NCBI GenBank assembly: GCA_018897435.1
Contig: JAHIKI010000062.1
Location: forward strand, 1 to 57,343
DNA from: Acidobacteriota bacterium
Lineage (GTDB): Bacteria; Acidobacteriota; Aminicenantia; UBA2199
DNA: 57,343 nt
Direction of reading: 5' to 3'
Each line of letters begins with the position of its first letter. The first letter of the stretch is position 1. The notes beneath the pieces are model-generated. The model saw only the letters and a list, made by a program, of their open reading frames with translations, ran no database searches and was not told the DNA's origin. The position numbers and the translations under genes were made by a program. Below are positions 9,342-57,343 of the stretch, piece by piece.

Positions 9342-10766
9342 ATGAAAAAAATAGGTTTAATCGCCGGGACCAGTTTTTTGGCCGGCGCGCTTTTTTTCGC
9401 CTTAAGTTTCGGTTTCCTGCAAAAATCAGTCAATAATGAGCCTGTCATCAGCCCGGCCGTAGTCAGGGCTGAATCCGTTTCCCAGTCGGTCGTTCCCAAC
9501 AGTTTCGTCGACATCGTCCGCAAAGTCAAACCGGCGGTGCTCAAGGTGATATCTGAATCGATTGTGGAAAGGCGCTCCAGGTTCGGCGACGATTTCTTCG
9601 ACCAGTTTTTCAACGCTCCGCGGCGCCAGGAAAAGCGTTCCGGCGAGGGCTCGGGATTTTTCATCTCGGCCGACGGCTATATCCTGACCAACAACCATGT
9701 GGTCAAGGATGCCGTCAAAGTGAAGATTTTTAATATCGATAATGCGGAATTCACCGCCAAGATCATCGGCACCGATCCCAAAACCGATCTGGCGTTGCTG
9801 AAGATCAGTACCAAAAACGTCCCCTTCATTGATCTGGGTGACTCCAATGCCGTGGAAGTAGGTGAGTGGGTGCTGGCCATCGGCAACCCCTTCGGCCAGG
9901 ACCTGACGGTCACTTCGGGGATCATTTCGGCTACGGGCCGGCATCTCGGCCTGGCCCAATACGAGGACTTCCTGCAGACCGATGCTGCCATCAACATGGG
10001 CAACTCGGGCGGGCCGTTGATCAATATGAAGGGTGAGGCCATCGGCATCAACTCCACAATCCTCACCCCCAGCGCCGGCAACATCGGCATCGGCTTCGCC
10101 ATTCCGGCCAACATGGCCAAGAAAGTGGTGGCCGACCTGAAAACCAAGGGCAAGGTGGTACGCGGCTGGTTCGGCATCCAGATCCAGAACATCAGCGCAA
10201 GCGATGCCAAGGACCTGCCCACCGCCGGCGTACTGGTTTCCAGAGTGGAGGAGAATTCCCCGGCCCAGAAAGCCGGTTTGAAGCGCTATGATCTGATCGT
10301 GGCCATCAACGGCAAGGCGATCAAAGCTGCTGCCGACCTGCAGATGGAGATCGCCAATTCGGCTCCCGGTGATGAGATCACCACCACCATTTACCGTAAC
10401 CGCGAAAAACAGGTGCTTAAGGTCAAGGTGATCGAGGCCCCGGATGCGGTCCGCGAGCAGGCCGCGGCCGAGAGCAAAAGCATGAGCCTGGGCATGGCCC
10501 TGGTCAAGAACACTCCGGGCCTGGCCCGCGAATACGGATTGAAGACGGCCAAGGGCCTGGTGGTCGAGAATGTGGAGCGGGGCGGCGCGGCCGCCGAGAA
10601 CGGGATCAAAACAGGTGACGTGATCCTGGCCGTCAACCGCACTGCAGTAGAGAGTGTGGCTCAATTAAGAAGCTTCCTGGCCGGACGGCGCAGCGGTTCC
10701 ATGGTCCTGCTGCTGATCAACCGCGACGGCGATGAGGTGTACATCCGCTTTGCCCTGCCGGAATGA
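9342..10766 (+). CDS. degP: Do/HtrA-family periplasmic serine protease, two PDZ domains
   Basis: 474 residues. An N-terminal signal or anchor (about 5-27) is followed by a trypsin-like domain with triad His119 (LTNNHVV), Asp149 (KTDLALL) and Ser222 (GNSGGPL). Two PDZ domains follow, at about 275-365 and 385-470. The enzyme degrades misfolded envelope proteins in the periplasm. AAGGAGG lies before the ATG. Its stop overlaps the start of the next gene (ATGA), a DapF-like protein, which is an unusual translational coupling. The symbol is used in the broad family sense (DegP/DegQ/MucD are not distinguishable here). Confidence 0.93.
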   Translation: MKKIGLIAGTSFLAGALFFALSFGFLQKSVNNEPVISPAVVRAESVSQSVVPNSFVDIVRKVKPAVLKVISESIVERRSRFGDDFFDQFFNAPRRQEKRSGEGSGFFISADGYILTNNHVVKDAVKVKIFNIDNAEFTAKIIGTDPKTDLALLKISTKNVPFIDLGDSNAVEVGEWVLAIGNPFGQDLTVTSGIISATGRHLGLAQYEDFLQTDAAINMGNSGGPLINMKGEAIGINSTILTPSAGNIGIGFAIPANMAKKVVADLKTKGKVVRGWFGIQIQNISASDAKDLPTAGVLVSRVEENSPAQKAGLKRYDLIVAINGKAIKAAADLQMEIANSAPGDEITTTIYRNREKQVLKVKVIEAPDAVREQAAAESKSMSLGMALVKNTPGLAREYGLKTAKGLVVENVERGGAAAENGIKTGDVILAVNRTAVESVAQLRSFLAGRRSGSMVLLLINRDGDEVYIRFALPE

Positions 10767-50736: not shown

Positions 50737-50887
50737 CTCTCTGCTTCCCCGAAAGGGATTGCCCCCCATTTTACAGAGAATTATTAATTATTCAATGTGC
50801 TTTCATACACCGGGATTGTTCAATTTTACATATTGCGAATGAAATATTTCAAATTGCAATCAAAATTAAAATAAAGTTTTCAAATTG

Positions 50888-50917
50888 TTGACAAATAGTA
50901 TCAAATATAGTACTAAT
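50888..50917 (+). promoter_or_regulatory. promoter and operator of the HicAB operon
   Basis: TTGACA (50888-50893), 18 bases, ACTAAT (50912-50917). The palindrome TAGTACTA (50908-50915) sits on the -10 region with a further TAGTA upstream (50897), a plausible HicB operator. Only 9 bases separate the -10 from the HicA start. Confidence 0.5.
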
Positions 50918-50926
50918 ATATTACGC

Positions 50927-51163
50927 ATGTCAAAAAAGGAGGAATTGATTGAGCGGCTTTTGCGCAAACCTGTCGATATGCGTTTTGAGGAGGTTGCTGT
51001 GATCCTCGAACATTACGGGTTTACTTTGGACAAAAAGAACCAAAAAGGCAGCCATTTTGTTTATTTTAAAGGAGATAAATTGATTACAATTCCGGTTCAC
51101 AATCACATGGTCAAAAGAACCTACTTGCAGATGATTATTGAAATGCTTGATTTGGAGGAATAA
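50927..51163 (+). CDS. hicA: HicA-type toxin
   Basis: 78 residues from ATG 50927. RKPVDMRFEEVAVILEHYGF and KGSHFVYFKGDKLITIPVHN show the HicA double-stranded RNA-binding-like fold, with the catalytic His in GSH. The toxin cleaves mRNA when freed from HicB. An earlier in-frame ATG at 50885 lies inside the promoter and is not used here. HicB follows after 3 bases. Confidence 0.88.
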   Translation: MSKKEELIERLLRKPVDMRFEEVAVILEHYGFTLDKKNQKGSHFVYFKGDKLITIPVHNHMVKRTYLQMIIEMLDLEE

Positions 51164-51166
51164 GCC

Positions 51167-51565
51167 ATGGAAAAGAAAGACATCTCTTATTACCTTTCCC
51201 TGCCATACAGCATCCATATCCAATCGGAAGCTGAGGGAGGCTTTTTTGCCCGGGTAGAGGAGCTGAAGGGATGTATGACCCAGGGAGAGAGCTTGGAGGA
51301 AGTTGCCGGCAACATCTGCGACGCCATGGAGGCCTGGTTGACGACGGCGCTGGACAGGGGAATCGCCATTCCCGAGCCGGAAACCCACAGCGGCAAGTTC
51401 GTGTTGCGGGTCCCCAGATCACTCCACCGTAAGCTGGCTGAAAATGCCCGCAGGGAAAACCTGAGCCTGAACCAATTCTTGATCTATCTGTTAACCGAGC
51501 AGAACACGATTTACGACATGAAACAAGTTCAAATGCCCATTAGTACCAAGAACAAGAAGAAATAA
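51167..51565 (+). CDS. hicB: HicB-type antitoxin
   Basis: 132 residues. YSIHIQSEAEGGFFARVEEL, KGCMTQGESLEEVAGNICDA and MEAWLTTALDRGIAIPEP form the partial RNase H fold of HicB. The C-terminal part, KFVLRVPRSLHRKLAENARR, then ENLSLNQFLIYLL, is a ribbon-helix-helix/Arc-type DNA-binding tail. It neutralises HicA and represses the operon. Its stop overlaps the start of the DUF3800 gene by one base (TAATG). Confidence 0.92.
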   Translation: MEKKDISYYLSLPYSIHIQSEAEGGFFARVEELKGCMTQGESLEEVAGNICDAMEAWLTTALDRGIAIPEPETHSGKFVLRVPRSLHRKLAENARRENLSLNQFLIYLLTEQNTIYDMKQVQMPISTKNKKK

Positions 51566-52221
51566 TGTACCTGTATCTGGATGAATCGGGCGATCTGGGC
51601 TTTAATCCTGATAAAAAGGGTAGTTCCAAGAAATTCGTCATAACTGTTCTGGTCTGCTCTTCTGACCTGTCCAGGCGCAATATTCGCCAGGCCATCCGAC
51701 GAACCATCAAATGCAAAATCAACAAAGGTAAAAAAAAGAAGCAATTGCAGGAACTGAAAGGATCTAAAACCGATTTCAAAATAAAAAAATACTTTTTTGA
51801 AAAAGTAAAAAACAATGGCTGGGAGATTTTTACATTGGCTTTGAACAAAAGCCGGGTACACGATGATTTGAAAACAAAAACCGGCAAGAAAAAACTTTAT
51901 AATTTCCTTTCAAGAATTTTAATTGAAAAAATGGCGCCGCGGCTGCAAACTTCCAAACAACATATTGAGCTCATTGTAGATAAATCTAAAAACTCTGAAG
52001 AAATACGAGACTTCAATATCTATTTGGCCAATCAACTGGAAGCATATTTGCCTTTGAACATTTTCCTGCATATTCGTCATCTATCTTCAACCGAATCCTT
52101 TGAATTGCAGGCCGTCGATCTGTTTTGTTGGGGGATTTTTCGCAAATACGAACAGAAAGACTTGGAATGGTATGATTTGTTCAAAAAGAAAATCGCATAT
52201 GAAACGGAATATTTGAAATAA
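51565..52221 (+). CDS. DUF3800 protein in the HicAB operon
   Basis: 218 residues. MYLYLDESGDLGF starts with the D-E-SGD motif (Asp6, Glu7, Asp10) of DUF3800, and IELIVDKSKNSEEIRDFNIY and SFELQAVDLFCWGIFRKYEQ give later acidic residues. The fold is thought to be RNase H-like with acidic metal ligands; a nuclease role is plausible but unproven. Coding composition is more AT-rich than core genes. The TAATG overlap with hicB means it is translated from the toxin-antitoxin message. Confidence 0.85.
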   Translation: MYLYLDESGDLGFNPDKKGSSKKFVITVLVCSSDLSRRNIRQAIRRTIKCKINKGKKKKQLQELKGSKTDFKIKKYFFEKVKNNGWEIFTLALNKSRVHDDLKTKTGKKKLYNFLSRILIEKMAPRLQTSKQHIELIVDKSKNSEEIRDFNIYLANQLEAYLPLNIFLHIRHLSSTESFELQAVDLFCWGIFRKYEQKDLEWYDLFKKKIAYETEYLK

Positions 52222-52430
52222 GGGGTAAAAAAAATGCGGACCCTGTAATGCTGATTCCTCCGGGCTCAGGGCCAACCTATGGAAGGAAGCACCCGAAGGA
52301 CATCACAGGACTTACCCGCACAGATATTATATTCAATATTTTTCTTTTGTCAACTTTTAGAGGCAAAAACTGGCATGACAGTATAAAAAAAAATAACAAT
52401 GTAAGACCTGGCACCAATGTCTATTCTGGC

Positions 52431-52453
52431 GTAGGGGCGGGGTTATCCCGCCC
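52431..52453. repeat. GTAGGGGC-type palindrome, copy 4
   Basis: GTAGGGGCGGG (52431-52441) and CCCGCCC (52447-52453). Lies in a gap with no gene (52222-52650). Confidence 0.55.
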
Positions 52454-52516
52454 TTCTTCAAAATCATCGATCCGGAATTGGAAAATTTGTGTGGTGACTA
52501 GGGACACGATGACAAT

Positions 52517-52540
52517 GGGCACGGCGAGCCGTGCCCCTAC
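52517..52540. repeat. GTAGGGGC-type palindrome, copy 5
   Basis: GGGCACGGC (52517-52525), GA, GCCGTGCCC (52528-52536), CTAC. Confidence 0.65.
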
Positions 52541-52650
52541 GGTTTGACAATTTCTGCCCCATTTAATATGATGTTTTTGCTTGGTCGCCAGGCGGGAATA
52601 AGAGATAAAAAAGGATCTGCAGTATGAATGAAAAATGAACTGAGGCATCC

Positions 52651-52932
52651 ATGAAAAAGAAGATTCCTGAGGGCGAATTGATCCGCTTTCACCTAACCCC
52701 TGCCGAGCGTACACTCGTTCGCGATGAGACACTTTACGATCCCGATTTTGCCAACTTGGCCGATTGTGAAGGAAATGGATTCGTCGTGCCGATGACGTTG
52801 CTTGATATTGAAGAACTCCAGGGAGATGTTGCGGCCGCGGCTAACCACTGCTCAGACAAGAAGGTCCAAGCCAGGCTGGACCGCTTTTTCGAAAAACTGC
52901 AGCGCTGCCTGAATAAGTACGAAGAGGTGTAA
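52651..52932 (+). CDS. unknown 93-residue protein
   Basis: MKKKIPEGELIRFHLTPAER, then TLVRDETLYDPDFANLADCE, GNGFVVPMTLLDIEELQGDV and a helical end with KKVQARLDRFFEKLQRCLNK. No membrane segment. GAGG about 7 bases before the ATG is a weak but usable site. It sits between two palindromes, the second of which begins right at its stop. I do not recognise a family; the composition is protein-like. Confidence 0.55.
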   Translation: MKKKIPEGELIRFHLTPAERTLVRDETLYDPDFANLADCEGNGFVVPMTLLDIEELQGDVAAAANHCSDKKVQARLDRFFEKLQRCLNKYEEV

Positions 52933-52956
52933 GGGCACGGCGCGCCGTGCCCCTAC
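52933..52956. repeat. GTAGGGGC-type palindrome, copy 6
   Basis: GGGCACGGCGCGCCGTGCCC is a perfect 20-base palindrome (52933-52952) followed by CTAC. The 17-base word AAGACCTGGCACCAATG occurs nearby at 52403-52419 and 53029-53045. Confidence 0.7.
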
Positions 52957-54017: not shown

Positions 54018-54818
54018 TTATAATGCTTCCGCCAGTGTACGCGCGTTTTTCAATTTTTCCATCAGGGTCAGCCGGGATGCCTGCATGTTTATCCCGGGAG
54101 AATAAACGATCGGGCCGATCATTTTGGCCTTGCCACTCAGCTTGACCATGTATTTCCCACTGTCCTGGTAGGGTTGGATCGAGTCGATCCGGCCATAGTG
54201 TGTGATTTTATGCAATGGAGATGTCATATAGATCGCAATATATTTAAGATTGGGGATTACTTTTTTTGACAGACGTATTGCATACCAGCGATTTTTCCCG
54301 AGAAATTCCTCTTCGAATCCCTCTGGATGGGCGGGACAAACGATGGTATCGTATTCACCGAGCCGGCGGCGCTCGGCTCGATCCTTTGATATTTCCGCAG
54401 GTCCATCCCCCGTAATTTCAAAAAGTTCCTTACGTTGCATATGTTGGACTTTCTGCTTAAAAAATTTGAATAGGTCTCTTGATTCTGAGAACTTCCCAGC
54501 CACTCGGTTTCCTTTTGGCATCGCGATCCTTAAAACGAGTGATTCGAGTTCTTTCAAATGTTCATCACCTTGAGTTAAATATATACTGAAGCGATTCCAT
54601 TCTTGAGCGTGACGGTCAGTTAAATGATCTCGCAAACGAGTACGAAGATTCTTGGCCAGTCCAACATAATGCAAAGTGTTCCCTTTATATAGGGCATAAA
54701 CTCCACTTTTCCTTCGCGCGAACTCAGTGACAATCTCAGGATAACGTTTTATTGCTGTTCTTGAAATACCTTCAAGATGTTCCATAACAAGCGGAGTCCG
54801 TTTTAGTTTCTTGTTCAT
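54018..54818 (-). CDS. GIY-YIG nuclease-domain protein
   Basis: 266 residues. KSGVYALYKGNTLHYVGLAK, then NLRTRLRDHLTD is the GIY-YIG core (GVY at 39-41, YVG at 51-53, Arg on the following helix). Residues about 100-266 are an unassigned domain with KELFEITGDGPAEISKDRAE and a C-terminal part resembling a predicted transport or restriction subunit. Its ATG overlaps the stop of the methylase fragment by 4 bases. It could be the cleavage module or a nicking accessory of the restriction system. Confidence 0.82.
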   Translation of the reverse strand: MNKKLKRTPLVMEHLEGISRTAIKRYPEIVTEFARRKSGVYALYKGNTLHYVGLAKNLRTRLRDHLTDRHAQEWNRFSIYLTQGDEHLKELESLVLRIAMPKGNRVAGKFSESRDLFKFFKQKVQHMQRKELFEITGDGPAEISKDRAERRRLGEYDTIVCPAHPEGFEEEFLGKNRWYAIRLSKKVIPNLKYIAIYMTSPLHKITHYGRIDSIQPYQDSGKYMVKLSGKAKMIGPIVYSPGINMQASRLTLMEKLKNARTLAEAL

Positions 54819-56044
54819 TTGGCTACTCCATCTTCTATAATCTTTATTTCTTCGTCAGTCAAACCATACAATTCAAAAACTAGCCCGTCAATTTCTTTGT
54901 CGATTGCTTCGATTTGTTTACTTATTGTATTTTTTTGCATTTCGGAATTCGAAGAAATATATTGAACATGCATTTCTAACATTGAATTAGCCAGCAAAGT
55001 TAGTCTGATATATTTTGAGTTTTCTAACTGAGAAGAAAAATCTATCAAAAGTAAAGGCAGGTCTCGTACCATTTTTGGCAAAACATCTGTGTAATCACCT
55101 TGCAGGTTTTTTGTAGCAATAAAATTAGCAAAATAAAATTTAATAAGTTTGGAATTTAATAATGCCAAATGAAATACCTCGGATTCAGTGCATTTTGATT
55201 TTTCATAACCAGGAAAATCCATTTTTAGATTGGTTCCTTCAAGAAAATGATATCGAACTAAACAAATTGAACGTTGGTCAGAATAAAATTTATTAATATC
55301 ATAGGTCGCCATAAGCCCAAAACCCTTACTGCTAGTTTTATTAATAATAATTTTTGGAGATTCAAAAAAATACGGATGCCTTGGTCCATACATAATCTTG
55401 GGTTGATAATTCAGATAATAATTATTCCATTTAAGAGCATAACGTTTAATATCTGTGCCGCGTAAACATTTTTTGGCATTACCTATAGCTTTATTGCCAA
55501 GTAGGGCCTCTTGAGAGAAAGCTCCTTTTTCCTTACTACAAATTTGTGCACCATAATTCACATAATAGACGTTTCCAACTTTAATTGATTGCTTGGTTAC
55601 TTTATTCTTTAATGCAATAGAAATATTTGATGTATTTATATCAAACATATAGTTGTGATTGTGCAACCAAAGAAGCGGCCTGATTCTAGTTTCTTTAATT
55701 ATTATGCCCTCTTCAAAATAGTCAACTTGTGATTCCGTATGTTTTCCTTTGGGCTCCAGAATTAATATGCATATTTTTCTGGAAACATTAGAAAACACTC
55801 TCTCTTGACCAAACACTGCTAGTTGAACAAGTTTATTTTTATGCACAATATCTTTGCGAATTTCCTTAGCATACAACTCGGTTAAAATGGAAGTTGGATA
55901 AACAAATGCATTCATTCCATGTGGATTTAAAATCTGAAATGAACGTAAAAGGAAAGCAAGATACTGGTCCCAATGACCAATTAAACTAGATTCTCTTTTT
56001 AAAATATAATTTCGAAAAAGATCATCACTTGTCCATGCACTAAT
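54815..56044 (-). CDS. C-terminal (specificity) part of a Type IIG-like methylase, separated by a frameshift
   Basis: An open frame whose first ATG is 55915 but whose sense continues upstream as ISAWTSDDLFRNYILKRESS, then LIGHWDQYLAFLLRSFQILN. It matches the region that follows NPPY in Eco57I/PglX-like methylases (NAFVYPTSILTELYAKEIRK, IDIKRYALKWNNYYLNYQPK style target-recognition segment). It is one base off the frame of the upstream methylase part, and much more AT-rich. It could be made as a separate polypeptide from ATG 55915 or be part of a dead gene. Confidence 0.7.
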   Translation of the reverse strand: MSAWTSDDLFRNYILKRESSLIGHWDQYLAFLLRSFQILNPHGMNAFVYPTSILTELYAKEIRKDIVHKNKLVQLAVFGQERVFSNVSRKICILILEPKGKHTESQVDYFEEGIIIKETRIRPLLWLHNHNYMFDINTSNISIALKNKVTKQSIKVGNVYYVNYGAQICSKEKGAFSQEALLGNKAIGNAKKCLRGTDIKRYALKWNNYYLNYQPKIMYGPRHPYFFESPKIIINKTSSKGFGLMATYDINKFYSDQRSICLVRYHFLEGTNLKMDFPGYEKSKCTESEVFHLALLNSKLIKFYFANFIATKNLQGDYTDVLPKMVRDLPLLLIDFSSQLENSKYIRLTLLANSMLEMHVQYISSNSEMQKNTISKQIEAIDKEIDGLVFELYGLTDEEIKIIEDGVAK

Positions 56045-57343
56045 CCAAAGGCGGATTGCCGATCACGCAATCAAACCCACCGGACTTCATGGCATCGGGG
56101 AATTCGCGGGTCCAGTCGAAGGGATTGACGCGCTTCATTTCCTCGGGGTCGGGGATCAGGCGACCGGAAAAGTAATCGGGACCGATGAGCGAATTACCAC
56201 ATTTAATATTATTAGAGAGATTGGGCAAAGCCCTTTCGTGGAAGAGCTGTCGGGACTGGCCGACGGTTTCGTCGGTTTCCCCTTCCAGAACCTTGAGCAG
56301 CAAAGACAGTTTCGAGACCTCGACCGCCTGGAGATCGATGTCCACGCCAAAAATATGCGTTATCAGGATGCGCTTTTTTTCGGCGATGGCGAGGCGCCAA
56401 TACTTGCCGCGGCTGTCCAGATAAACGGCTTGCTTATGTTTTGCCGGGTGGTTTTCCAGGTACCATTTAAGACAGTGGTCGAGAAGGTATTGGTAGGCGC
56501 CGAGAAGGAAAGAGCCGGAACCGCAGGCCATGTCCAGGACGCGCAGCGGCTGGCCGTTTTTGCCGCCGGCGAGCTGCGCCGGGCTCTTGCCTTCGATCAT
56601 CTTGCCCACGGTGTTCTTAACGATGTAATCTACAATATAAGCAGGAGTGTAATAGACGCCTCCCGCCTTGCGCACCTCGGGCTTTTCCTCGACCTTGGCC
56701 CGGTGCTCGGGAGTCAGGCGAATCACCTTGCCCAGGAAACGTTCATAGACCGTACCCAGAATCTCAACTGGCAGGACGCCGAAATGGTAGGGCGAACCAT
56801 GCTCGAAGTAGAGATTCTGCAGAATGGGTTTGATCACCTTGTCATCGATGGTCAGCGCCGGAGTAAGGCGGTCGTGCTGTTCAGATACCCCATCCTCTTT
56901 CTGGAAATGGAAGATGCCTGAATTGTATTTCTCATCGGCCTTGCGGCACAGTTTCATAAATTGGGCATAAATTTCCGGCTGTTCACAGAGCTTGAGCAAC
57001 TGACCGTAAGATTCACTGCCGCGATCCTCGGCTATGCGCAGGAAAATGAGGCGGTCGATGGTACGCTGCACGGCGGTGTTCAGATCGTCATAGCCCAGGT
57101 ACAGATTGCGCAGGGCGATATTGCGGGCCAGGGAATCGCGCCAGCCCTCAATTTCCTTCAGGAACTCGCTGTCCACCTCCGAGGTGCCGCGCTTGCGCTT
57201 GGAAGCGGCGAACTTGTCGTACGATCCCGCCCACACCGCCTCGCGTGAAAAAATATCCCACAACTCTCGCCAGCGGTCAGGGTATTCTTCAGAACGAAAA
57301 TACTGGATGCGGCCGTAACTGGCTTTGTCAACGGGCCGCGGCC
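56040..57343 (-). CDS. Type IIG-like N6-adenine DNA methylase, N-terminal part (runs off the window)
   Basis: The frame is open to the window edge (VDKASYGRIQYFRSEEYPDR precedes MWDIFS), so the gene starts outside. It has RNLYLGYDDLNTAVQRTIDR, VYYTPAYIVDYIVKNTVGKM, SAM motif I VLDMACGSGSFLLGAYQYLL and IFGVDIDLQAVEVSKLSLLL. The catalytic motif reaches FDCVIGNPPLD and stops at 56040. The usual NPPY/F plus specificity domain is continued out of frame in the next ORF. Such enzymes methylate adenine and often also cleave or guard a site. Confidence 0.85.
   Translation of the reverse strand, partial: PRPVDKASYGRIQYFRSEEYPDRWRELWDIFSREAVWAGSYDKFAASKRKRGTSEVDSEFLKEIEGWRDSLARNIALRNLYLGYDDLNTAVQRTIDRLIFLRIAEDRGSESYGQLLKLCEQPEIYAQFMKLCRKADEKYNSGIFHFQKEDGVSEQHDRLTPALTIDDKVIKPILQNLYFEHGSPYHFGVLPVEILGTVYERFLGKVIRLTPEHRAKVEEKPEVRKAGGVYYTPAYIVDYIVKNTVGKMIEGKSPAQLAGGKNGQPLRVLDMACGSGSFLLGAYQYLLDHCLKWYLENHPAKHKQAVYLDSRGKYWRLAIAEKKRILITHIFGVDIDLQAVEVSKLSLLLKVLEGETDETVGQSRQLFHERALPNLSNNIKCGNSLIGPDYFSGRLIPDPEEMKRVNPFDWTREFPDAMKSGGFDCVIGNPPLD

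Follow-up and report, generated by a model that had tools for sequence, protein, structure and literature searches.

The window analyzed here is an entire contig of 57,343 nucleotides (nt) (G000:C27:1-57343) from a metagenome-assembled genome (MAG) of an Acidobacteriota bacterium, which comprises 2.19 Mb in 105 contigs and is 60% complete. Its last minus-strand gene, which is truncated at the 5' end by the end of the contig, is a predicted type IIG (Eco57I-like) restriction-methylase of a family found patchily across phyla, and it is present as two halves in frames offset by one base. The N-half (56040..57341, minus strand) encodes a helical part and the methylase motifs in the order LDMACGSGSF, then GNPP (P0002). 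Its open reading frame (ORF), from 57341 to 56040, has 433 codons, is open at the contig end and terminates with GNPPLD-TAG. The C-half (54815..56062, minus strand) reads ISAWTSDDLFRNY... in the other frame and has no stop in 408 codons down to 54815, whereas the two alternative frames there contain 29 and 42 stops. It encodes the remaining methylase fold, a TaqI_C-type specificity domain and a tail. The Pfam Eco57I profile is divided between the halves, with positions 2-83 of 171 matched in the N-half and 96-171 in the C-half. The N-half also matches the PADLOC model REase_MTase_IIG PDLC03604 (355 bits), and the C-half matches N6_Mtase and TaqI_C (7.3e-14).

The joint between the halves (56040..56065, minus strand) is marked by sequence, by GC content and by the end of DNA similarity to three sibling copies. 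Because a TGA at 56065-56063 closes the C-half frame upstream and a TAG at 56042-56040 closes the N-half frame, the frame change is confined to 23 nt that hold the NPP codons, and it splits motif IV. The best GC change point of 54815-57343 lies at 56050, 8 nt from the N codon of NPP, where GC falls from 0.556 to 0.314. Its log-likelihood gain is 75.7, compared with at most 9.5 in 50 triplet shuffles. These results bear out the initial annotation, which had described a methylase broken at NPP where base composition changes, with a GC-rich part ending in GNPPLD-stop and an AT-rich continuation one base off in another frame. The interval that it gave, 54815-57343, does hold the gene, but the start placed at 54815 is actually the C-half stop. 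Missing residues at the joint can be ruled out, since alignments of the C-half to four relatives (L059, L060, L063 and L037) begin 9-11 residues in and reveal no shortening at NPP; the defect is one of frame alone. As assembled, the window copy should be inactive, because its chain stops at NPP and loses both the motif and the recognition domain, and because, in MmeI, it is the motif IV aromatic that packs against the flipped adenine (PMC4833311). The earlier suggestion of an inactivated defense gene agrees with this expectation for the gene as assembled.

The MAG contains four more copies of the gene. In a DNA search of the genome, the copies on contigs C92 (88%), C71 (78%) and C2 (77%) match the window from the contig end to 56050. 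Past this position C71 and C2 have no further match, and C92 has one, at the tail (72%, 180 nt). These three copies are single open frames of 1030, 965 and 995 codons, and the fourth, C46, is more distant (48% amino acid identity). The window N-half is 95% identical in amino acid sequence to that of C92. Amino acid identities of N-halves and C-halves are 94% and 25% for C92 and the window, 95% and 33% for C71 and C2, and, elsewhere, 96% and 26% (G008:C151/C153) and 96% and 30% (G026:C147/G025:C314). Among 428 codons compared between the window N-half and C92, 119 differ synonymously and 23 nonsynonymously, an excess that is a sign that selection probably acted on the N-half until recently. The longest exact runs common to the window and C92 or C71 are 71 and 62 nt, respectively, and they lie 770-1090 nt from the joint.

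An alignment of 14 N-half proteins (A1) and a scan for relatives yielded at least 589 candidates and at least 551 relatives. The best 80, which were kept, have 53-77% identity and come from planctomycetes, chloroflexi, nitrospirae, proteobacteria, spirochaetes, archaea and others. In its own phylum the family is sparse, with a match at E 1e-60 or better in 14 of 396 genomes; 16 of the 18 other matches in this survey reach NPP within frames of at least 687 codons, and some of these are the same genes as in the set used here. That set consists of the window and 96 genes, drawn from 18 usable loci of its own order and 78 of the 80. Of the 100 loci (L024-L123), these 96 have an open frame and continue through NPP-Y/F/W/L/H. 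Three loci truncated at contig ends (L032, L033 and L113) and one with GIPPY (L119) were excluded before counting. Frame loss at the joint occurs in the window copy alone among the 97 genes. None of the other 96 has a stop within 100 codons after NPP, and several break later or run off contigs. Single linkage at 45% identity places the 97 N-halves in one cluster and the C-halves in 38. By sequence comparison the C-halves are distant homologs, with a median identity of 30% over about their full length in the pairs reported by blastp (4476 of 4656).

A few members are damaged at other places. L099 has an in-frame stop in its N-half, and L081 has a break in its C-half. L119 is a full-length member in which GIPPY replaces GNPPY, and it is probably catalytically dead.

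DNA comparisons between close relatives locate the left boundary of the variable block. The comparison covered every pair from the 97 genes whose DNA identity in the 150 nt preceding NPP is 75% or higher (91 pairs from 53 genes). In 79 of the 91, identity falls steeply between -1 and +16 nt from the NPP codons; it reaches 0.2-0.4, close to chance, in the majority and about 0.5 in a few. The other 12 have no drop, and their C-halves are related. With the last 240 nt of the C-halves left out, gapped blastn gives no match in 75 of the 79 dropping pairs, and coverage is below 10% in 78. Pairs whose N-halves are 87-99% identical in DNA have C-half identities of 0.25-0.41 from -1 to +8 nt of the NPP codons. 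Grouping the C-halves inside N-half clusters gives an estimate of at least 26 exchanges. A control set was assembled from loci found with an HsdM profile (30 matched, 11 of them above the cut-off and 26 usable). At the same threshold, none of its 9 pairs drops after NPP, and identity over the next 60 nt is 0.70-1.00. Several control pairs at 65-75% identity drop 128-137 nt after NPP in gapless alignment, but none does so at NPP.

The compositional boundary is also shared. A strong GC step is present in 28 of the 85 relatives tested and absent from 57. It lies within 60 nt of NPP in 23 of the 28, and the N-half is the richer side in all 28. Intact relatives that step at the same place speak against both a unique swap of a target recognition domain (TRD) and an assembly chimera, as proposed in the initial annotation, as the source of the composition step; a one-base assembly error at the joint is weighed below.

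The right boundary lies in or near a conserved C-terminal tail, the 3' constant block of the family (54827..55045, minus strand, in the window), which matches its profile with E 1.4e-28 and has 32-49% amino acid identity to the other 15 tails of alignment A2. Most of 22 pairs compared become similar again at a point 58-245 nt ahead of the stop, with identities of about 65-94%; several of those whose N-halves are 87-99% identical in DNA reach 83-94% in the tail. The shortest stretches are those of the window, with 58 nt to C92, 77 to G025:C314 and 101 to G015:C18. Similarity between L024 and L028 is back only at the last 5 nt. The pairs L067/L083 and L068/L077 have no tail similarity, and one contig of each ends inside the gene.

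Extra copies of the tail on the same strand occur in 12 of the 100 loci (L029, L059, L062, L066, L072, L080, L081, L084, L092, L093, L110 and L112), and the window has one tail only. The extra tails are downstream in 11 of the 12 and upstream in L072; the L081 gene is broken, and one of its two tails is its own. In L092, L066 and L112, genes of toxin-antitoxin, TIR or other defense type separate the tails. L092 has four tails that are 66-100% identical to the first and are spaced by 922, 1080 and 1162 nt. Between them lie a DUF4258 gene with an MqsA-like gene, a DUF433 gene with a DUF5615-like gene, and TumE, where the MqsA and DUF5615 matches are below their cut-offs. L066 has TIR and DUF3800 genes between tails; in L112 a TIR gene lies between tails, and an AAA_15 gene follows one of them. 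The tail-and-TIR array of L066 is flanked by an identical 36-nt perfect palindrome (L066:7542-7577 and 9802-9837).

On a tree of the N-halves, the window is sister to C92 (97, starred) within a clade of five genes that has four C-half types. Changes of C-half type number 25 at 45% identity (22-25 in shuffles), 36 at 50% (36-44) and 18 at 60% (21-26), counts that are inflated by a quickly built tree in which 36 of 93 inner branches are open. The C-halves appear to follow the N-half tree only weakly.

The intact C92 copy indicates what the complete protein may look like. Its putative N-terminal nuclease region has a weak HSDR_N match (26.0 bits against a cut-off of 25.1), and PDY...EAKK is conserved in alignment A3; the corresponding N-terminal region of the window gene lies beyond the contig end. 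C92 matches Pfam Eco57I with 152 bits and falls just under the cut-off for TaqI_C (24.8 against 26.5). A C-terminal specificity domain within the chain is indicated by TaqI_C in the window C-half and by the PADLOC type IIG models, and Pfam finds one TaqI_C stretch each in the window C-half and C92. The predicted structure of C92 has a mean pLDDT of 76 and a pTM of 0.46. Its strands 621-627, 649-654 and 668-674 follow NPP, which suggests that the methylase fold is completed by the exchanged part. The model has low confidence at residues 566-570, the start of GNPP, and its tail consists of long helices (960-985, 989-1013 and 1018-1029). The nearest solved folds are CamA (7rfl, E 1.2e-24), M.BseCI, PglX (8q56, 5.7e-16), MmeI and BpuSI (3s1s, 6.3e-14), with TM-scores by query length of 0.32-0.36 for CamA and PglX. 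Assignment to PglX of BREX systems was rejected, as the two halves, scanned separately, reach 24-42 bits with the NCBIfam PglX models, whose cut-offs are 400-900.

These observations are best explained by a multicopy type IIG family with a constant 5' block, an exchangeable middle and a constant 3' tail, of which the window copy would be a recent exchange product that was joined out of frame and is dead as assembled (probability about 0.75). The 5' block comprises the N-terminal region and the methylase motifs through the NPP codons; the middle starts at the motif IV aromatic residue and includes the remaining methylase fold as well as the specificity domain. Recombination anchored on the motif IV codons and the tail would replace this middle, with its left end at those codons and its right end in or near the tail, and a new middle should bring a new target sequence that applies to both cutting and methylation. 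In the window copy, the AT-rich C-half is the middle, joined one base out of frame at the NPP codons where the chain ends, and the frame was probably lost during or soon after the exchange. A TRD swap whose join lost frame, one of the possibilities raised in the initial annotation, comes closest, except that the swapped part is not the TRD alone and reaches from motif IV (NPP-Y/W) to the conserved tail, at a join that is used throughout the family. If homologous crossovers occurred anywhere in the 1.7 kb of common N-half, then breakpoints should be scattered, and this is not seen in the close pairs. Crossovers may be biased toward the NPP codons, these codons may be all that donors have in common, or joints elsewhere may be lost to selection.

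Several points weigh against this explanation. A change of specificity by exchange is deduced from sequence. The window is known from one assembly without reads, and its contig breaks off within a multicopy gene, the sort of place at which assemblers make errors. Searches of genomes, plasmids, phages and viral contigs turned up no close donor of the C-half: those of genomes, phages and viral contigs gave no relative, plasmids gave 5 records at about 22% identity or less, and the best match by E-value outside its own genome, among 34 genomes of the order, has 41% identity over residues 288-407, at the protein end. No recombinase has been shown to act, and the flanks were not scanned for one. 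The close pairs are not independent, and the bound of 26 exchanges shifts with clustering thresholds. C-half types are somewhat associated with the N-half tree at the 50 and 60% thresholds. Mismatches at the third positions of the four GNPP codons (0.46, 0.00, 0.46 and 0.38, against a background of 0.27) do not resolve crossover points inside NPP, and fine mapping by this route was uninformative; the script used a different step criterion, which placed L037/L038 and L059/L060 on the no-step side.

The alternatives concern mainly how the frame was lost. An indel placed at random in the 2,527 visible nt would hit these 23 nt with a chance of 0.9%, which favors a frame loss linked to the joint, whether biological or introduced by assembly. 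The exchange joint could be real and the lost frame a one-base assembly or consensus error, with the gene intact in the cell. This possibility deserves attention, although we do not prefer it: the contig end lies within the N-half, of which the MAG has four further copies, both visible halves look otherwise intact, and the other 96 genes stay in frame at the joint. Set against it is the finding of no frame-split gene in the 26,165 window bases that are covered by ORFs of genus mates (at least 60% amino acid identity). The long distance from the joint to the longest exact runs with C92 and C71 also means that a repeat-driven misjoin with these copies is not expected, an argument that does not cover copies from other strains in the sample. 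An ordinary pseudogene, in which a later indel is unrelated to the exchange, has precedents in the members damaged elsewhere (L099, L119 and L081), but the position of the change within the 23 nt at the joint makes this account unlikely.

Two further readings have very little to commend them. A programmed frameshift or phase variation might be suspected from a single-base offset at a functional junction, but the joint has only short homopolymers and no repeat tract, and none of the other 96 genes has the offset, which makes this very improbable. Least probable is that no recombination took place and that diversifying selection alone drives rapid change in the C-half. Variation in recognition domains is well known, and the C-halves are distant homologs; the collapse of the closest N-half pairs right at NPP, the recovery of several of them in the tail, and GC steps at the same place refute this idea in the main.

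The family resembles type IIG enzymes such as Eco57I and BpuSI in its single chain, its gamma-class methylase with an NPP motif IV and its C-terminal specificity domain; it differs in that the exchange point is inside the catalytic motif and carries along half of the methylase fold. Among known processes, domain movement (DOMO) in Helicobacter pylori, in which TRDs of S subunits move between two positions via flanking repeats (PMC3077401, PMC3983042), comes nearest. There, too, recombination between constant flanks swaps specificity-determining sequence, but the present family consists of single-chain enzymes whose left flank is formed by motif IV codons. In MmeI and other type IIL enzymes, cutting and methylation use one recognition domain, and specificity can change in one step; NPPF is conserved in 341 aligned members, and the accessible portion of this work describes no exchange at motif IV (PMC4833311). 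Polymorphic toxins likewise combine a constant N-terminal part with an exchangeable C-terminal part, as described in PMC3482391. No toxin has been shown here. Integrons carry cassette arrays, and some family loci with cargo separated by repeats look similar. This layout of cargo followed by a repeat is seen in L092, L066 and L112, with extra tails in just 12 of 100 loci and none in the window. Unlike in integrons, the repeat is the coding tail of the gene itself, and no integrase or attC site has been shown in flanks that were not systematically scanned. Exchange of recognition domains is already known; what appears to be new is that it takes place at motif IV of a single-chain enzyme and is accompanied by extra tails, some of which surround defense genes. 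Such exchange is not described in the literature searched, including the accessible portions of PMC3983042, PMC3077401, PMC3874165 and PMC4833311, which is no proof of absence as subscription journals were largely outside the search.

Downstream of the C-half, a gene with a weak GIY-YIG match (54018..54818, minus strand; 21.3 bits, below the cut-off of 22.6) has an ATG that overlaps the C-half stop. Relatives of this gene are found downstream of 4 of the 100 loci, among them L024, with a 124-codon frame, and L028, at a distance of 555 nt. Beyond the broken methylase, window positions 50882-52931 hold a HicA/HicB pair, a DUF3800 gene and a small ORF, and the stretches 50882-51536 (84%, with HicA/HicB) and 52632-52931 (92%) recur beside the C92 copy. 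A palindromic repeat around GGGCACGGCGCGCCGTGCCC at 52928-52956 is also found within 80 nt upstream of the type IIG genes in L024 and L028, and elsewhere in loci of the genus. In the C46 copy (L027:7729-10719 in G000:C46), an IS200-like Y1 transposase domain (Pfam, 59 bits) interrupts the methylase without breaking its frame, a few dozen residues ahead of GNPPY. The palindrome AAGGGGCTTAAGCCCCTT adjoins this domain and, with at most one mismatch, occurs in its genome (G000) only at C46 (three times) and C59. L040 (G025:C306) has a likewise placed stretch that looks similar by eye to the Y1 domain of L027.

A more far-reaching possibility, which we regard as doubtful, is that these loci are exchange platforms with two anchors, the motif IV codons as the left one and the coding tail as the right one. 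Specificity halves would be swapped between distant methylases, tail-to-tail recombination would gather toxin-antitoxin, TIR and other defense cargo into arrays punctuated by the repeat, and the window copy would be a fresh out-of-frame product. If so, end joining at motif IV would be indicated as its origin, and not homologous recombination along the long N-half. It has long been asked how bifunctional restriction enzymes can switch specificity and yet leave the cell alive. With an estimated minimum of 26 natural exchanges at a single codon-level joint, the family provides many natural chimeras that reveal where such enzymes tolerate being cut and rejoined, and it gives a direct test of the mutual dependence of the two halves of the methylase fold. 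It may also explain how defense cargo comes to be gathered downstream of such genes.

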